The notes under the pieces are model-generated. The model saw nothing but the letters and a program-made list of their open reading frames with translations, made no database searches and had not been told where the DNA came from. This document shows, one piece after another, positions 17,878-27,698 of a DNA stretch of 33,523 nt. The first letter of the stretch is position 1, and every line of letters starts with the position of its first letter. A program made the position numbers and the translations under genes. The DNA is from Methanimicrococcus sp. OttesenSCG-928-J09. GTDB lineage: Archaea; Halobacteriota; Methanosarcinia; Methanosarcinales; Methanosarcinaceae. The DNA is taken from NCBI GenBank assembly GCA_030266245.1, contig JAJDHP010000009.1:1-33523 (forward strand), read 5' to 3'.

Positions 17878-18840
17878 TTATGAATTCTTTCTGAGCAGCG
17901 CAAAATGAGCGACGAGCGCTTCTAACTGAATTTTTTCATTCGCGCCTTCCGAAATTCTGAAATCGGTTTCACCGACAGCGTCAATGAGGTGAATCATTTC
18001 AGTGTCGCTCAAATCTTCGAGTTTGAAAAGCGCACGATAGATTTGATTCATAACGTCATCAGCTGACAAACCTTGATCAAAAACCAAACTGTTCAGCTTT
18101 TCACGGGCATTTTTAAATTCGCCGGCCAGTGCCGTTTGAATTAAATCCAAAACTTCTTCGGGGCGCGCAGTTGCCGTAATTTTGTAAACGGTTTCCTCAT
18201 CAATATCTCTTTGAATGAAAGCGGCCGCCTGCAAAGAATTGACGGCTTTTCTCATGTCGCCGCCGGAAACATAAACAAGCGCTTTTAAGCCGCCTTCGGT
18301 AATTGTCAGACTTTCGGTGTCTGCAATGAAGCGGACGCGCTTTGAAATCGCATCATCCGTTAAACTGCGGAATCTGTAAATCGCGCAGCGGGACTGAATC
18401 GGTTCAATAATTTTTGACGAATAATTACAGGAAAGAATAAAACGGCAGTTACTGCTGTATTTTTCCATCGTTCTGCGAAGCGCGGACTGCGCATCATTTG
18501 TCAGCGCATCGGCTTCGTCTAAAAAGATAATTTTAAAAGATGCGCCGCCGATCGGGGCCGTTTTGGCAAATGTTTTGATTTTATTTCTTACAATATCAAT
18601 ACCGCGCTCATCAGACGCATTCAATTCCGTAAAATTTTCAGCCCAGAATTCACCGAACATTTCACGCGCGATTGAAACGGCGGAAGCTGTTTTGCCGACG
18701 CCCGGCGGACCGGTAAAAAGAAGATGCGGCAGATTCTTTGATTGAACATAAGATTTCAAACGCTCAACCGTTTCCTCCTGGCCGAAAACATCGTCCAGCT
18801 TCATCGGGCGGTATTTTTCAACCCAAATTTCTTCTCTCAT
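17878..18840 (-). CDS. rfcS: Replication factor C small subunit
   Basis: Clamp-loader ATPase subunit that, with the large subunit, opens PCNA and loads it on primed DNA. The 320-residue length is normal. Visible landmarks are the RFC N-terminal WVEKYRPMKLDDVFGQE, Walker A GPPGVGKT at 44-51, Walker B DEAD at 108-111, the arginine-finger SRC motif at 150-152, and sensor 2 GGDMRKAVNSLQ. All catalytic residues are present, so this is an active-type subunit rather than a degenerate paralogue. The ATG has GAGGA about 8 nt upstream. nreA, whose product carries a PCNA-binding motif, lies about 2.6 kb away, a suggestive but not proven replication/repair association. Confidence 0.97.
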   Translation of the reverse strand: MREEIWVEKYRPMKLDDVFGQEETVERLKSYVQSKNLPHLLFTGPPGVGKTASAVSIAREMFGEFWAENFTELNASDERGIDIVRNKIKTFAKTAPIGGASFKIIFLDEADALTNDAQSALRRTMEKYSSNCRFILSCNYSSKIIEPIQSRCAIYRFRSLTDDAISKRVRFIADTESLTITEGGLKALVYVSGGDMRKAVNSLQAAAFIQRDIDEETVYKITATARPEEVLDLIQTALAGEFKNAREKLNSLVFDQGLSADDVMNQIYRALFKLEDLSDTEMIHLIDAVGETDFRISEGANEKIQLEALVAHFALLRKNS

Positions 18841-19354
18841 AAATAAATCCTCTAAATCTAATGAATCATCTAAATGAATTTAAGCAATCTAATGAATCTA
18901 ATTTAACCAAATCAAACCAAAGGATACTATATACTTTTTTCGAACATTATAAAGCAACCGCCGTTTGCGCAGAAACAGAATGCAGATGCAGAATCTGAGT
19001 CGGCAGCAGCAAGCAGCAAACAGTGCAGATGGCAGCAAGCGGCAAATGATAAGCGGCAAATAGCAAGTGGCAGCAGCAAGCAGTAAGTGGCAAGCGGTAA
19101 GTGGCAAGCGGTACTGACGGCAACAGTAAACTGATAGCAGTGACGGCAGACCGCAGCAATAGCAAGCAGTAGTAATTGCAGGCAGTAGAAGCAATAGTAA
19201 GCAGCAGCAAGCAATAGCAACCAGCAGTACTAATTATATAGTAAGCAGTGGCAGCAGACAGCAGGAGCTGAGTCCGCAGACTGCATCAGTAAAAAGCTGC
19301 GCGGGATGAAAGCGGCCTGTAAACGGATAGCAATCAGCGCCAATTCAGCTGCAT
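18841..19354. other. Gap with degenerate GCA-rich repeats
   Basis: A 514-bp stretch between rfcS and the 459-residue DAC-domain gene. From about 18990 to 19270 it is made of irregular GCAAGCAG, GGCAGCAG and GCAAGCGGTAAGTGGC-type pieces without a fixed period. The vocabulary matches the GCA-rich tails at 15654-16010 and 27281-27698, including AGTAAGCAGTRG. Reverse-strand frames here stay open only because the complementary strand is poor in stop codons. The first 100 bp before rfcS are AT-rich and may hold its promoter (TACTATATACTTTTTT near 18925). Confidence 0.65.
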
Positions 19355-20734
19355 TCAGCCGACATAAGTTATCAGCTTTCCATGTCTGTAAATTGAAATC
19401 GGTCCGTCATCCGAAACTTTAACGGCAATGCCGTAAATGCTGGCATTCCAGGCGGCTGTGCTTCTTGCGCCCGGCAGAACTTCCAAATTCTTAAGACCGT
19501 GTTCATTCAGACGGATTTCATCGGGCTCGCCGATCATACAGGACACATCCAATACTTCGCCGTTCTTGGAAATGACGACTGCGCCATCTACTTTGGCGGC
19601 AGCCATTATTATTTTGCGATGAATTTTATGAGTTACATTCAATCCCTTGACAGTGTTTCGGAGGGTTTCGTTCACTCTTTCACTTTGACAGTAATCGGGA
19701 ATAATTTCATCTAAAATTTCTTCGTTTTCCGGAATAAAAATAAGCGTTCCTTTCCGTTCGTAAGATAAATCCAGAACCAATCTCAATATGGAAAGCGCGA
19801 TGTGTTTTTCAACAAATTTGGAAAGCGTAATGTGAATCGTAGAATAATTAACGTAATGCCACTTGCCTTGTGTTTTATGGAAAAGTGTTCTTTTCGGAAG
19901 AATCACATAAATGCTTCCGTTTTCGGAAGTCATCATGATAAACGTTTTCGGCGGCATTCTGGCAATCAAAGGAATCAAATCTTCATGAGGCGCCAGCAAT
20001 GTATTTTGTTCAATTTCCTCTTCCGTTAATGTCGGTTCAGGCATCGTAAACATACCGAAAATGTCGCCGTTTTCACCGTAACCCGCAATTCCGACTGTGT
20101 TTTCGCTCATGGAACCGCGAATCCATTTTTCTTCCATAATTCCTTTTTCAAACGGAACCGGCTGCGTGAAAGGCATAAAACTGTCCGAAAGCGTCTGCAG
20201 AATACATTCTTTCTTTTTCGCCATCAGCATACAGAATGTAAACGGTTTATTTTCATATTGAAGATGCGTGCTGTTTTCGGCAATCTGAAGCCATTTGATC
20301 ATCGGATTCGTGCTGAATGAAGAAAACTTAGCGATCGCGCGGCTGAATTGACTTTGCTTCAAGGTCATCCAAACTTCAGAATGTTTCTCTTGAACCGGAA
20401 TAATCGTAATATCGTCATTAAAAACCTGGCAAAAATGATCGCCGAATATCAAATCAATTTCCTGAACCTCATTTAAAAGTGAAATAAAATAACCGGCGGC
20501 GACTTTCTTTTCAGGTCCGCTTTGATATAAAACAGAAATCAATCCGTTTCGACCGGCGCTCCAAAAAAGATGAACCGTTTCTTTATTGCCGAATATTTCA
20601 AGCTCATTCCGAATTTCATCTGCCGTCAGCGTTTGAACACTTTCAATCGGAAAAATATATTTTAACGAAGTGATGAGCTCGGCCTTTGTTTCTTCACTTT
20701 CAAATCTTTGCATATAATTGGAAAATAATCTCAT
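19355..20734 (-). CDS. DAC (DisA_N) domain protein with unrecognised N-terminal region
   Basis: A 459-residue protein whose last 150 residues or so match the diadenylate cyclase (DisA_N) fold: LDLSYERKGTLIFIPE, then VDGAVVISKNGEVL with an intact DGA at 383-385, then LPGARSTAAW and ISIYRHGK near the end. The second catalytic motif, normally R-H-R, reads R424-S425-T426, so phosphate contacts expected for catalysis are changed. Residues 1 to about 300 show no domain I can name. It could be an inactive or altered DAC, a c-di-AMP or nucleotide sensor, or one half of a heteromeric enzyme. It is transcribed divergently from a DacZ-type gene, with 463 bp between. The ATG lacks a strong ribosome-binding site. 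Confidence 0.75.
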   Translation of the reverse strand: MRLFSNYMQRFESEETKAELITSLKYIFPIESVQTLTADEIRNELEIFGNKETVHLFWSAGRNGLISVLYQSGPEKKVAAGYFISLLNEVQEIDLIFGDHFCQVFNDDITIIPVQEKHSEVWMTLKQSQFSRAIAKFSSFSTNPMIKWLQIAENSTHLQYENKPFTFCMLMAKKKECILQTLSDSFMPFTQPVPFEKGIMEEKWIRGSMSENTVGIAGYGENGDIFGMFTMPEPTLTEEEIEQNTLLAPHEDLIPLIARMPPKTFIMMTSENGSIYVILPKRTLFHKTQGKWHYVNYSTIHITLSKFVEKHIALSILRLVLDLSYERKGTLIFIPENEEILDEIIPDYCQSERVNETLRNTVKGLNVTHKIHRKIIMAAAKVDGAVVISKNGEVLDVSCMIGEPDEIRLNEHGLKNLEVLPGARSTAAWNASIYGIAVKVSDDGPISIYRHGKLITYVG

Positions 20735-21034
20735 TGATTAAATATTCTTTTTCGCAGCAGTTGACAAAAATTGAAAACTCAATTATATCGAAATAATCAG
20801 ATAAATCGTATAATAATCGGAAAATCAAATTAAATCAAAAAAACCAATTAAATCAAAACTCAATTAAATCGAAATATCGGATTAAACAAAATAAAATTGA
20901 ATTAAAAATTGCGTAATATTAAAAATAGAATTTTATTTTTAAGCTCATTTTTAGTTTATTGTCGAAAATTTAGAACAGTTTATCGACAGACTCTTGAAGC
21001 GGATACTGAAAAAAACAAGATTTGAACTAAAAAG

Positions 21035-21043
21035 TATATATAA
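21035..21043 (+). promoter_or_regulatory. Possible TATA box of the dacZ-type gene
   Basis: TATATATAA preceded by AAAAAG and located 163 bp before the ATG. Initiation 25 bp downstream would leave a leader of about 135 nt. Judged by sequence alone. Confidence 0.4.
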
Positions 21044-21184
21044 AAGAAAATTGCTTTTAAAATATATAGAGCAAAATTCTGATTAAATCTGTAATTTAAA
21101 TGCTGAAATATAAGACAGCAAAAAACAAACAAATATGATTCTAGTTTTGAACATTTGCTTTTCACAGAATTAAAAGTCATTTTT

Positions 21185-21190
21185 GGTGAT
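21185..21190 (+). promoter_or_regulatory. Ribosome-binding site setting the dacZ-type start
   Basis: GGTGAT stands 7 nt before the ATG at 21198 and overlaps the in-frame TTG and GTG codons just upstream, so the ATG is the likely start. Confidence 0.7.
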
Positions 21191-21197
21191 TGACAAA

Positions 21198-22175
21198 ATG
21201 GATGAAATAACGGATATATCGGAAATAAAAACAAATGTGGAAACTCCGATTTTTAATGCTTCCGCCTCTGACGATCTTTGCGGCATCCTGTTAAAAGATA
21301 CGGTCGTTCATATCGCAAAGCTGATGGGAGCCGTGGCTGTCTTTACTTTTGGAAACATCGACACCAAAACCTTCAGAGACTTAGATGTTCCCGTTATTGA
21401 TATCACCCAAATTAAAACAATTATTGAAAAGTTAACGTATTTGAAAAACGAAGATCAATCTCAGCTTCGCGAAATTTCTGACGCCATTCGAAATGAGGCT
21501 GACAAAAACGCGTCTCTTCTGATGAGCGCCGCTGCTGTAGAATACAGTTTGGGAACAATTGACTGCGGCATTGTCATCGGTTTGATTCGTACTCAGGACT
21601 CATATTCGCTTGTCGTTCACAGCATGGAAGAAAATGAGACGGTTCAAGTGGTTCGCGAATGTGAAAAGCGCGTCACGCCCGAAACATTCAGAAGCGCACT
21701 TCATTTATCTTTGAATATCGCAATGAAGGGCCGCGAAGGCAAAAAAGTAGGCACCGCTTTCATCCTCGGCGACGAAGAAGAAGTTTTGGAAAGATCACAT
21801 CAAATGATTATCAACCCGTTCCGCGGTCAGGATCCCAATTTCGAAGTCAATATTAACAAGAAAGAAAATTGGGAAACAGTCATGGGATTTGCCCAGCTCG
21901 ACGGCGTGTTCATCATATCAGAATCCGGCAAAATTCTCTCAGCCGGCCGCTATTTAGACGTAGATACACGCGACGTTCATATTGAAAAAGGACTCGGCAC
22001 CCGTCACCTCTCATCCGCCTCCATCACCAGAGATACAAATGCAATCGCGATTGCCGTTTCAGAATCAGGCGGAACAATTCGCGTTTACATGGACGGCAAA
22101 GAAGTCATTTATGTAGAGCCGAACGCATCGCTTGTTCAAGTTGACGGCCAGAATGTGGCAAGCCGATCTTTTTAA
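21198..22175 (+). CDS. dacZ: DacZ-type diadenylate cyclase
   Basis: A 325-residue protein with the layout of archaeal DacZ, which makes c-di-AMP from two ATP. The N-terminal 150 residues form an alpha/beta domain rich in valine and isoleucine (VFTFGN, DVPVIDITQ), as in DacZ proteins. The DAC domain runs from about 165 to 310: LHLSLNIAMKGREGKKVGTAF, LDGVFIISESGKIL with DGV at 235-237, and GLGTRHLSSASIT with RHL at 269-271. Canonical motifs are DGA and RHR, so both are altered by one residue. V for A is mild, but L for the second arginine may affect phosphate binding. It is divergent from another DAC-domain gene and ends in a clear terminator-like hairpin. Confidence 0.85.
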   Translation: MDEITDISEIKTNVETPIFNASASDDLCGILLKDTVVHIAKLMGAVAVFTFGNIDTKTFRDLDVPVIDITQIKTIIEKLTYLKNEDQSQLREISDAIRNEADKNASLLMSAAAVEYSLGTIDCGIVIGLIRTQDSYSLVVHSMEENETVQVVRECEKRVTPETFRSALHLSLNIAMKGREGKKVGTAFILGDEEEVLERSHQMIINPFRGQDPNFEVNINKKENWETVMGFAQLDGVFIISESGKILSAGRYLDVDTRDVHIEKGLGTRHLSSASITRDTNAIAIAVSESGGTIRVYMDGKEVIYVEPNASLVQVDGQNVASRSF

Positions 22176-22192
22176 TGACTTTTTTGTAAATG

Positions 22193-22213
22193 AAAAAACG
22201 GCGGTCGTTTTTT
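22193..22213 (+). terminator. Terminator-like hairpin after dacZ
   Basis: AAAAAACG (22193-22200), a 5-nt loop, and CGTTTTTT (22206-22213) form a perfect 8-bp stem ending in a T run, 18 bp after the stop codon. Confidence 0.7.
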
Positions 22214-22344
22214 CAACCTTTTTTAAAACTTGGAGCAGCTCGCGCGCGTGAGACGAGAGACATAATGATCAGCAGAAATATTACTGCGGCGGCAGCCGCA
22301 AAAATCGCGAAGCGATTTTAAATGCAAATCGCCCTCCCACTGCA

Positions 22345-22416
22345 AAACTAAAAACAGACTCCAAGTGGGAACTAAAAACAGACTCCAAGCGGAAAATTAA
22401 ACCTGACACCAAATGG
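22345..22416 (+). repeat. Three 24-bp satellite units
   Basis: Units at 22345-22368, 22369-22392 and 22393-22416 end in CCAAGTGG, CCAAGCGG and CCAAATGG. They are in exact 24-bp phase and carry CAGACTCC or CTGACACC, related to the left-edge array. A degenerate reverse copy of the GCATGGGCAGG-type motif (CCCACTGCAAAACTA) lies just before them at 22336-22350. Confidence 0.85.
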
Positions 22417-22507
22417 TTGCGTCTGACGCCGGCCTTCGGCGGCGCAGCCGTAAAAATTGCGAAGCGATTTTTCAGTAAACGCCTGATGAAATCTTAGGCG
22501 CAGCCAT

Positions 22508-22549
22508 AAAAAATCGTGAGCAGCCCGAAGGGCAGCGAAACGATTTTTT
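22508..22549 (-). terminator. Hairpin overlapping the pyrI stop codon
   Basis: Outer arms AAAAAATCGT (22508-22517) and ACGATTTTTT (22540-22549) enclose an inner GCCC/GGGC stem. Read on the minus strand the structure ends in a T run, as expected for a terminator. It overlaps the stop codon (22548-22550). Confidence 0.65.
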
Positions 22550-23081
22550 ACTCAATAAATTGAATCAATTCTTCCGTCATCACACTTTCACAGAAAACGC
22601 ATCTTAAAACAAGCGATTTGACTTTTTCGTCAGCGGCAACTGCAAATTTAGATTCAATCGGTTCGCTGTTTGTGATACAGTTCGGATTGATACATCTGAC
22701 AATTCCGCAAACATAATCGGGCGTTTGGATTTTTCTTTTTTCGATGACTTCGAAATCACGAATAATGTTGACGGTCGCCTTGGGAGAAATGAGAGAAATC
22801 GCGTTGACTTCTTTTTCCGTTAACTCGCGGCCTTCGATTTTGACGACATCTTTGTCGCCGCGGGAACTGCCGGCATTCATAACGATGCTGACCGTATTGG
22901 TGAAATTTTCGCCGCCGCCGAGAATGCTGATAACATTCAGCGCCTGACCGGCTGTAATGTGATCGATGACGGTGCCGTTTTCAATCGCTTTGATTCTCAG
23001 GTCGTTTTTGTCGCCGAGCTTGTCGGATCTTTTCTTATCTGTTTTATCAGTACTTGTTCCTTCAGTTTGGAGCGCGCTCAT
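22548..23081 (-). CDS. pyrI: Aspartate carbamoyltransferase regulatory chain
   Basis: Regulatory subunit that binds nucleotide effectors and joins PyrB catalytic trimers into the allosteric complex. The 177 residues exceed the 153 of E. coli because of a charged N-terminal extension of about 25 residues (KTDKKRSDKLGDKNDL). The regulatory domain begins at RIKAIENGTVIDHI. The C-terminal zinc domain has four cysteines: C130, C135, C161 and C164. The ATG overlaps the pyrB stop codon as ATGA, so translation is likely coupled, and GGGAGGG stands upstream. A hairpin covers its own stop codon. Confidence 0.96.
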   Translation of the reverse strand: MSALQTEGTSTDKTDKKRSDKLGDKNDLRIKAIENGTVIDHITAGQALNVISILGGGENFTNTVSIVMNAGSSRGDKDVVKIEGRELTEKEVNAISLISPKATVNIIRDFEVIEKRKIQTPDYVCGIVRCINPNCITNSEPIESKFAVAADEKVKSLVLRCVFCESVMTEELIQFIE

Positions 23082-27280: not shown

Positions 27281-27698
27281 GGCAACAGCAGATAGCAAGC
27301 TGTAACGGCAACAGCAGATAGCAAGCTGTAACGGCAACAGCAGATAGCAAGCTGTAACGGCAACAGCAGATAGCAAGCTGTAACGGCAACAGCAGATAGC
27401 AAGCTGTAATGGCAACAGCAGATAGCAAGCTGTAACGGCAACAGCAGATAGCAAGCAGTAGCGGCAACAGCAGATAGCAAGCTGTAACGGCAACAGCAGA
27501 TAGCAAGCTGTAACGGCAACAGCAGATAGCAAGCTGTAACGGCAACAGCAGATAGCAAGCTGTAACGGCAACAGCAGATAGCAAGCTGTAATAGCAACGG
27601 CAGGTGGCAAGCTGTAACAGCAACGGCAGGCAGTAAGTTGTAACAGCAACGGTAGAGGTAGCAGTCTGTAACGGCAACGGCAGGTAGCAAATTGTAAC
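27281..27698 (+). repeat. 26-bp tandem array, 12 regular units plus 4 degenerate
   Basis: Twelve 26-bp units run from 27281 to 27592, each with GGCAACAGCAGATAGCAAGC. They are identical except for AAT instead of AAC ends (27385-27410 and 27567-27592) and one variant with GCAGTAGC (27437-27462). Four decaying units follow to 27698, one of them 28 bp long. The period is not a multiple of three, so the open reverse frames read the same peptide in rotating frames and are not genes. The array leads into a GGTAAGGTAGCTGTGG segment shared with 15654-16010. Confidence 0.95.

Follow-up and report, generated by a model that had tools for sequence, protein, structure and literature searches.

A DAC-like protein with a shortened RHR loop beside an ordinary archaeal dacZ in Methanimicrococcus

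In the genome of a gut methanogen, a Methanimicrococcus (Methanosarcinaceae), two genes for DAC-domain proteins lie back to back: dacZ on the plus strand and, on the minus strand, a gene for a protein that we label DAC2. Both are real open reading frames. DAC domains are c-di-AMP synthases that bear two motifs, DGA and RHR. The reading that we favour, and to which we give an even chance, is that DAC2 is an acquired, DAC-derived protein that has lost cyclase activity and acts as a nucleotide-binding sensor or regulator, next to a DacZ that is an independent synthase. Its homology to DAC domains, the loss within its motif, the site of its insertion, the purifying selection on it and its patchy presence all come from the data. 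The features concerned are given below in coordinates of the window, by which we mean the whole stretch of 33,523 nucleotides that was analysed.

17878..18840, minus strand: rfcS (replication factor C small subunit), which we take it to be from its sequence; placed by synteny, it marks the DAC2 insertion site
19355..20734, minus strand: DAC2, 459 aa; open reading frame, Pfam DAC match of 27.6 bits, intact copy in M. blatticola, dN/dS
19376..19768, minus strand: DAC-like domain of DAC2; PF02457 genome search and profile alignments
20959..20988, no strand assigned: dyad TTGTCGAAA...TCGACA upstream of dacZ, in 6/6 Methanimicrococcus genomes
21035..21046, plus strand: TATA-like element TATATATAAAAG, conserved in the six-genome alignment; putative dacZ promoter element
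21198..22175, plus strand: dacZ, 325 aa; PF21754 and PF02457, ATG common to six genomes
21717..22100, plus strand: DAC domain of DacZ; PF02457, 82.7 bits in the genome search

The gene pair and its DacZ

The preliminary description had reported a minus-strand frame with DGA at residues 383-385 and a plus-strand protein with DGV at 235-237 and RHL at 269-271, and had called both DAC-domain proteins; all of this was borne out. The DAC2 frame runs from 19355 to 20734, and an ATG at 20713 (codon 8), where the M. blatticola copy starts, may be the true start. The DacZ residues are counted from the genus-conserved ATG at 21198, within a frame that spans 21183-22175 (+). Pfam DAC matches DacZ at 81 bits (E 6.4e-23) and DAC2 at 27.6 bits, and these two are the only DAC matches that a PF02457 search found in the assembly, which is 58% complete. 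An Rfam scan of 18000-23000 and a tRNA scan gave no matches. Low-complexity repeats (GCAAGCGGTAAGTG-type units) occupy 18841-19354, between DAC2 and rfcS, with a similar stretch at 27372-27461, and downstream of dacZ a 24-bp unit (AACTAAAAACAGACTCCAAGnGG) is repeated about three times at 22345-22412.

Judged by its sequence, the gene on the plus strand is an unremarkable dacZ of the archaeal type. Its N-terminal domain is DacZ_A (PF21754, 46.7 bits against a cutoff of 28.3), and DGV and GTRHL are found in every Methanimicrococcus copy. Among 60 distinct DacZ-type sequences, the first motif is DGV in 37 and DGI in 10, a few of the other readings (DGY, DGR and similar) being artefacts of the search pattern, and the second is RHV in 23, RHR in 14, RHL in 9, RHM in 5, RHI in 4, RHA in 4 and RHS in 1, counts from which the universality of RH cannot be read since the pattern demanded it. 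In archaeal DacZ, DGV is thus usual and the residue after RH is variable. The proposal that the two proteins carry complementary motif changes does not survive this census, since the DGV and RHL of DacZ are the usual archaeal motif, and no partner is needed to explain DacZ. A DAC match as strong as that of DacZ occurs in 109 of the family's 112 genomes, among them every one of the 86 that are at least 90% complete, and members of the DacZ family are kept in genomes without DAC2. DacZ is predicted to be the resident c-di-AMP synthase, one that would work without DAC2. PADLOC model C3a181, named "diadenylate cyclase", recognises this housekeeping protein (E 1.9e-13), so that a match to C3a181 alone is no evidence of defence.

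The altered DAC domain of DAC2

Pfam places a DAC domain at residues 323-453 of DAC2 with 27.6 bits (E 2.3e-6), the cutoff being 27, and the M. blatticola copy scores just under that cutoff at 25.5 bits. Alignment to the DacZ profile by hhalign gives E 3e-12 over 134 columns, and pairwise comparison with the neighbouring DacZ gives 37.7 bits, pairwise E-values applying to the single comparison alone. With the profile alignment, the homology between DAC2 and DAC domains is secure and not a matter of chance. A PDB profile search returned weak matches only (DisA at E 0.22), and AlphaFold2 models built from shallow alignments of 2 and 4 sequences had mean pLDDT values of 32 and 36. For the first 345 residues, Pfam gave no match at E up to 10; neither DacZ_A nor any other sensor domain was recognised there.

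DAC2 retains D383, G384 and A385. At its second motif, the preliminary description had read RST (424-426) in place of RHR. The position is right (R424, S425 and T426, in the loop GAR-STAA at 422-428), but a residue-for-residue replacement is not what the profile and pairwise alignments give: in both, the loop has two residues fewer than that of DacZ (GAR--STAA vs GTRHLSSA), the His and the third residue of RHR being deleted and the first Arg remaining. In Mycobacterium tuberculosis DacA, changing RHR to AAA abolishes both ATP binding and c-di-AMP formation (PMC3328451), and for that reason DAC2, with its His and third residue lost and its DGA aspartate kept, is predicted to be unable to make c-di-AMP. 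The parallel is inexact, since DAC2 keeps the first Arg and the DacA mutant lost all three residues, and DAC2 may use another substrate or yield another product. Quite unlikely, in our view, is the alternative that DAC2 works as a nucleotide cyclase, its active site being altered and its product either c-di-AMP or some other dinucleotide; such an enzyme would be consistent with the kept DGA and first Arg and with the altered domain being the most conserved part of the protein, but DisA-type enzymes require the motif to which the missing His and third residue belong (PMC3328451), and every bacterial relative whose C-terminus is intact lacks the His as well.

The loss of cyclase activity in DAC2, its nucleotide binding, its regulatory role and the direction of its transfer are what we infer. 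In the favoured reading, the DAC fold of DAC2 would most likely still bind nucleotide (ATP or a cyclic dinucleotide), and the ligand state would be relayed to the N-terminal region, which would make the protein a nucleotide-responsive regulator or effector. The loss of ATP binding in the DacA mutant argues against nucleotide binding by DAC2. That the altered domain is so strongly conserved speaks for a role that was kept, presumably ligand sensing. The dN/dS of DAC2 is about 0.07, from the one available sequence pair (window vs M. blatticola, 90% identical), and falls to 0.015 over the last 90 residues; DAC2 is under strong purifying selection, and this is strongest in the altered DAC domain. 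Its dS of 0.77 lies within the range of the neighbouring genes (0.77-1.23) and hence gives no sign of recent exchange. Two other candidates were rejected: a decaying gene, since DAC2 is intact in two species at this dN/dS, and a known anti-phage defence gene, since PADLOC had no match for DAC2, nor for its Agrobacterium and Vescimonas relatives. From the earlier suggestion of a regulatory pseudo-enzyme paired with an active enzyme, one half can be kept, in that DAC2 looks catalytically altered and possibly pseudo-enzymatic beside a normal DacZ; the functional pairing has lost support.

Distribution, insertion site and promoter region

DAC2 is present in two of six Methanimicrococcus genomes, that of the window and that of M. 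blatticola DSM 13328, whose protein is its closest relative at 90% identity, and none of the other genomes sampled from the family or the phylum yielded it. In both genomes, it sits within the spacer between rfcS and dacZ. Three congeners (G012, G013 and G014) have dacZ and rfcS as direct divergent neighbours, about 370-510 bp apart, with no trace of DAC2 in the spacer; in the remaining one (93% complete), DAC2 is absent and dacZ has other neighbours. The intergenic region common to DAC2 and dacZ thus arises because DAC2 lies inside the divergent rfcS-dacZ spacer. In a dacZ tree and in one built from three flanking genes, concatenated, M. blatticola groups with the DAC2-less G012 at moderate support (86-96). 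The probable history is a gain of DAC2 ahead of the split between these species and a later loss in G012; its separate transfer into the two species is possible. In M. blatticola, a 306-aa orphan frame of 31% GC (L032:7418-8338) lies between DAC2 and rfcS; it occurs neither in the window nor in the 110 further genomes of the family that were searched, and it has no Pfam, PADLOC or PHROGs match.

Conservation of the pair in relatives, which had been suggested as a check, was accordingly looked for and not found: DAC2 occurs in 2/6 congeners, and the orthologous site is empty in three. Without such co-occurrence of DAC2 and dacZ, the mixed dimer put forward at the outset loses support, and at present it is neither supported nor excluded. 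The broader alternative is that DAC2 is a dedicated partner of DacZ, mixed DAC-DAC faces tuning or blocking c-di-AMP synthesis and divergent transcription balancing the doses. DAC enzymes do act as facing dimers (PMC8573169), the neighbour of DAC2 is the one further DAC gene that the assembly yielded, and the arrangement is retained in two species; moreover, the chance of a random insertion at this place is roughly 1/1000 by our own estimate, made after the adjacency had been seen, and for this reason a partnership stays open. However, the adjacency reflects a single inferred insertion event and is itself what the finding was selected for, dacZ occurs without DAC2 in four of the six congeners and in the rest of the family, the bacterial relatives of DAC2 have no annotated DAC neighbour, and DAC2 was likely lost in G012. 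On balance, we consider a dedicated partner unlikely.

The dyad TTGTCGAAA...TCGACA is single in its own assembly and is followed, about 50 bp on, by the TATA-like element; since it is present in genomes without DAC2, it belongs to dacZ, of which it is possibly an operator. The DNA between the dyad and DAC2 has no match between the window and M. blatticola, and a shared regulated promoter is thus not demonstrated.

Bacterial relatives and known systems

A tblastn search, starting from a weak match on a Paracoccus albus plasmid (E 0.09), led to Agrobacterium vitis, Vescimonas fastidiosa and a faecal "phage" scaffold. The unannotated relatives, four in all, are these:

WP_235678681.1: Agrobacterium vitis, plasmid
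WP_271073601.1: Paracoccus albus, plasmid
WP_212822112.1: Vescimonas fastidiosa, plasmid
MT837587.1: faecal scaffold

DAC2 matches the A. vitis protein by blastp at 55 bits (E 6e-12) and the four relatives together by hhalign at E 1.7e-10, the score being carried by the DAC domain and the segment before it, with a weak N-terminal part. DGA is kept in all four, and the three with an intact C-terminus have a shortened loop without His, GGRTAAA or GARGAAC; the Paracoccus copy stops before the RHR loop. The relatives share with DAC2 the segment before the DAC domain and can be aligned with it over most of their length. They differ from it in sequence (about 17-24% identity), DAC2 carries an insert before the loop, and DAC2, unlike them, is on an archaeal chromosome and beside dacZ.

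A tree separates DAC2 and three bacterial relatives from all DacZ proteins (99/97), on long branches. The alternative tree, in which DAC2 joins the Methanimicrococcus DacZ, has a p-AU of 0.052, so that a local origin of DAC2 is not formally rejected. This p-AU, the adjacency to dacZ, the 38-bit similarity to the neighbouring DacZ and the DacZ-like C-terminal end would all suit a local duplicate of dacZ that diverged and took on a new N-terminus. Against this stand the 99/97 split and the pre-DAC segment, shortened loop and layout that DAC2 has in common with the bacterial proteins, to which its pairwise scores are higher, and we regard local duplication as very unlikely.

The Paracoccus gene is surrounded on its plasmid by IS elements and an integrase, and the Vescimonas gene by conjugation-type genes. 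The A. vitis gene (L058:4971-6251) is near traA and adjoins a CBASS operon (DncV-like cyclase, patatin-like phospholipase, ThiF, Mov34/MPN), an adjacency that may be chance in this one case. No DAC gene is among the annotated neighbours of the bacterial relatives. Protein and pattern scans of viral contigs found no DAC2 relatives, with a corrected pattern that recovers its own two positives. In the favoured reading, DAC2 would be one inserted representative of a DAC-derived family, as yet without a name, that bacterial mobile elements carry too. A more far-reaching version, that DAC2 and its plasmid relatives form an unrecognised family in which a synthase fold has become a cyclic-dinucleotide receptor, sponge or regulator spread by mobile elements, and that in Methanimicrococcus DAC2, settled beside dacZ, now tunes c-di-AMP signalling, strikes us as distinctly doubtful. 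The bacterial group has possibly been described in earlier literature; a search for DAC pseudoenzymes, of incomplete coverage, found nothing, and a survey of DAC architectures has reportedly been published. A His-less group that retains the fold and DGA, has an N-terminal region of no recognised kind and extends across bacterial plasmids and an archaeal chromosome would point to a second use of the synthase fold, perhaps in sensing.

Among known systems, archaeal DacZ/CdaZ (e.g., Haloferax volcanii HVO_1660, PMC6741144) has a C-terminal DAC domain, as DAC2 does, and the plus-strand gene is a plain member of this group; DAC2 differs in its lack of DacZ_A, in its longer, different N-terminus and in a loop two residues shorter and without His. 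The bacterial enzymes CdaA, DisA and CdaS are homologous to DAC2 in the DAC fold, and the DGA is kept; unlike them, DAC2 has lost RHR, and it has neither the membrane region of CdaA nor, by Pfam or NCBIfam, a DisA-type architecture. The locus would be a compact system for asking if a DAC-like protein controls DacZ. That a partner can control a DAC has a precedent in GlmM, which inhibits CdaA by blocking assembly of the active facing subunits (PMC8573169). GlmM, unlike DAC2, is not DAC-derived, and an equivalent interaction for DAC2 is hypothetical.
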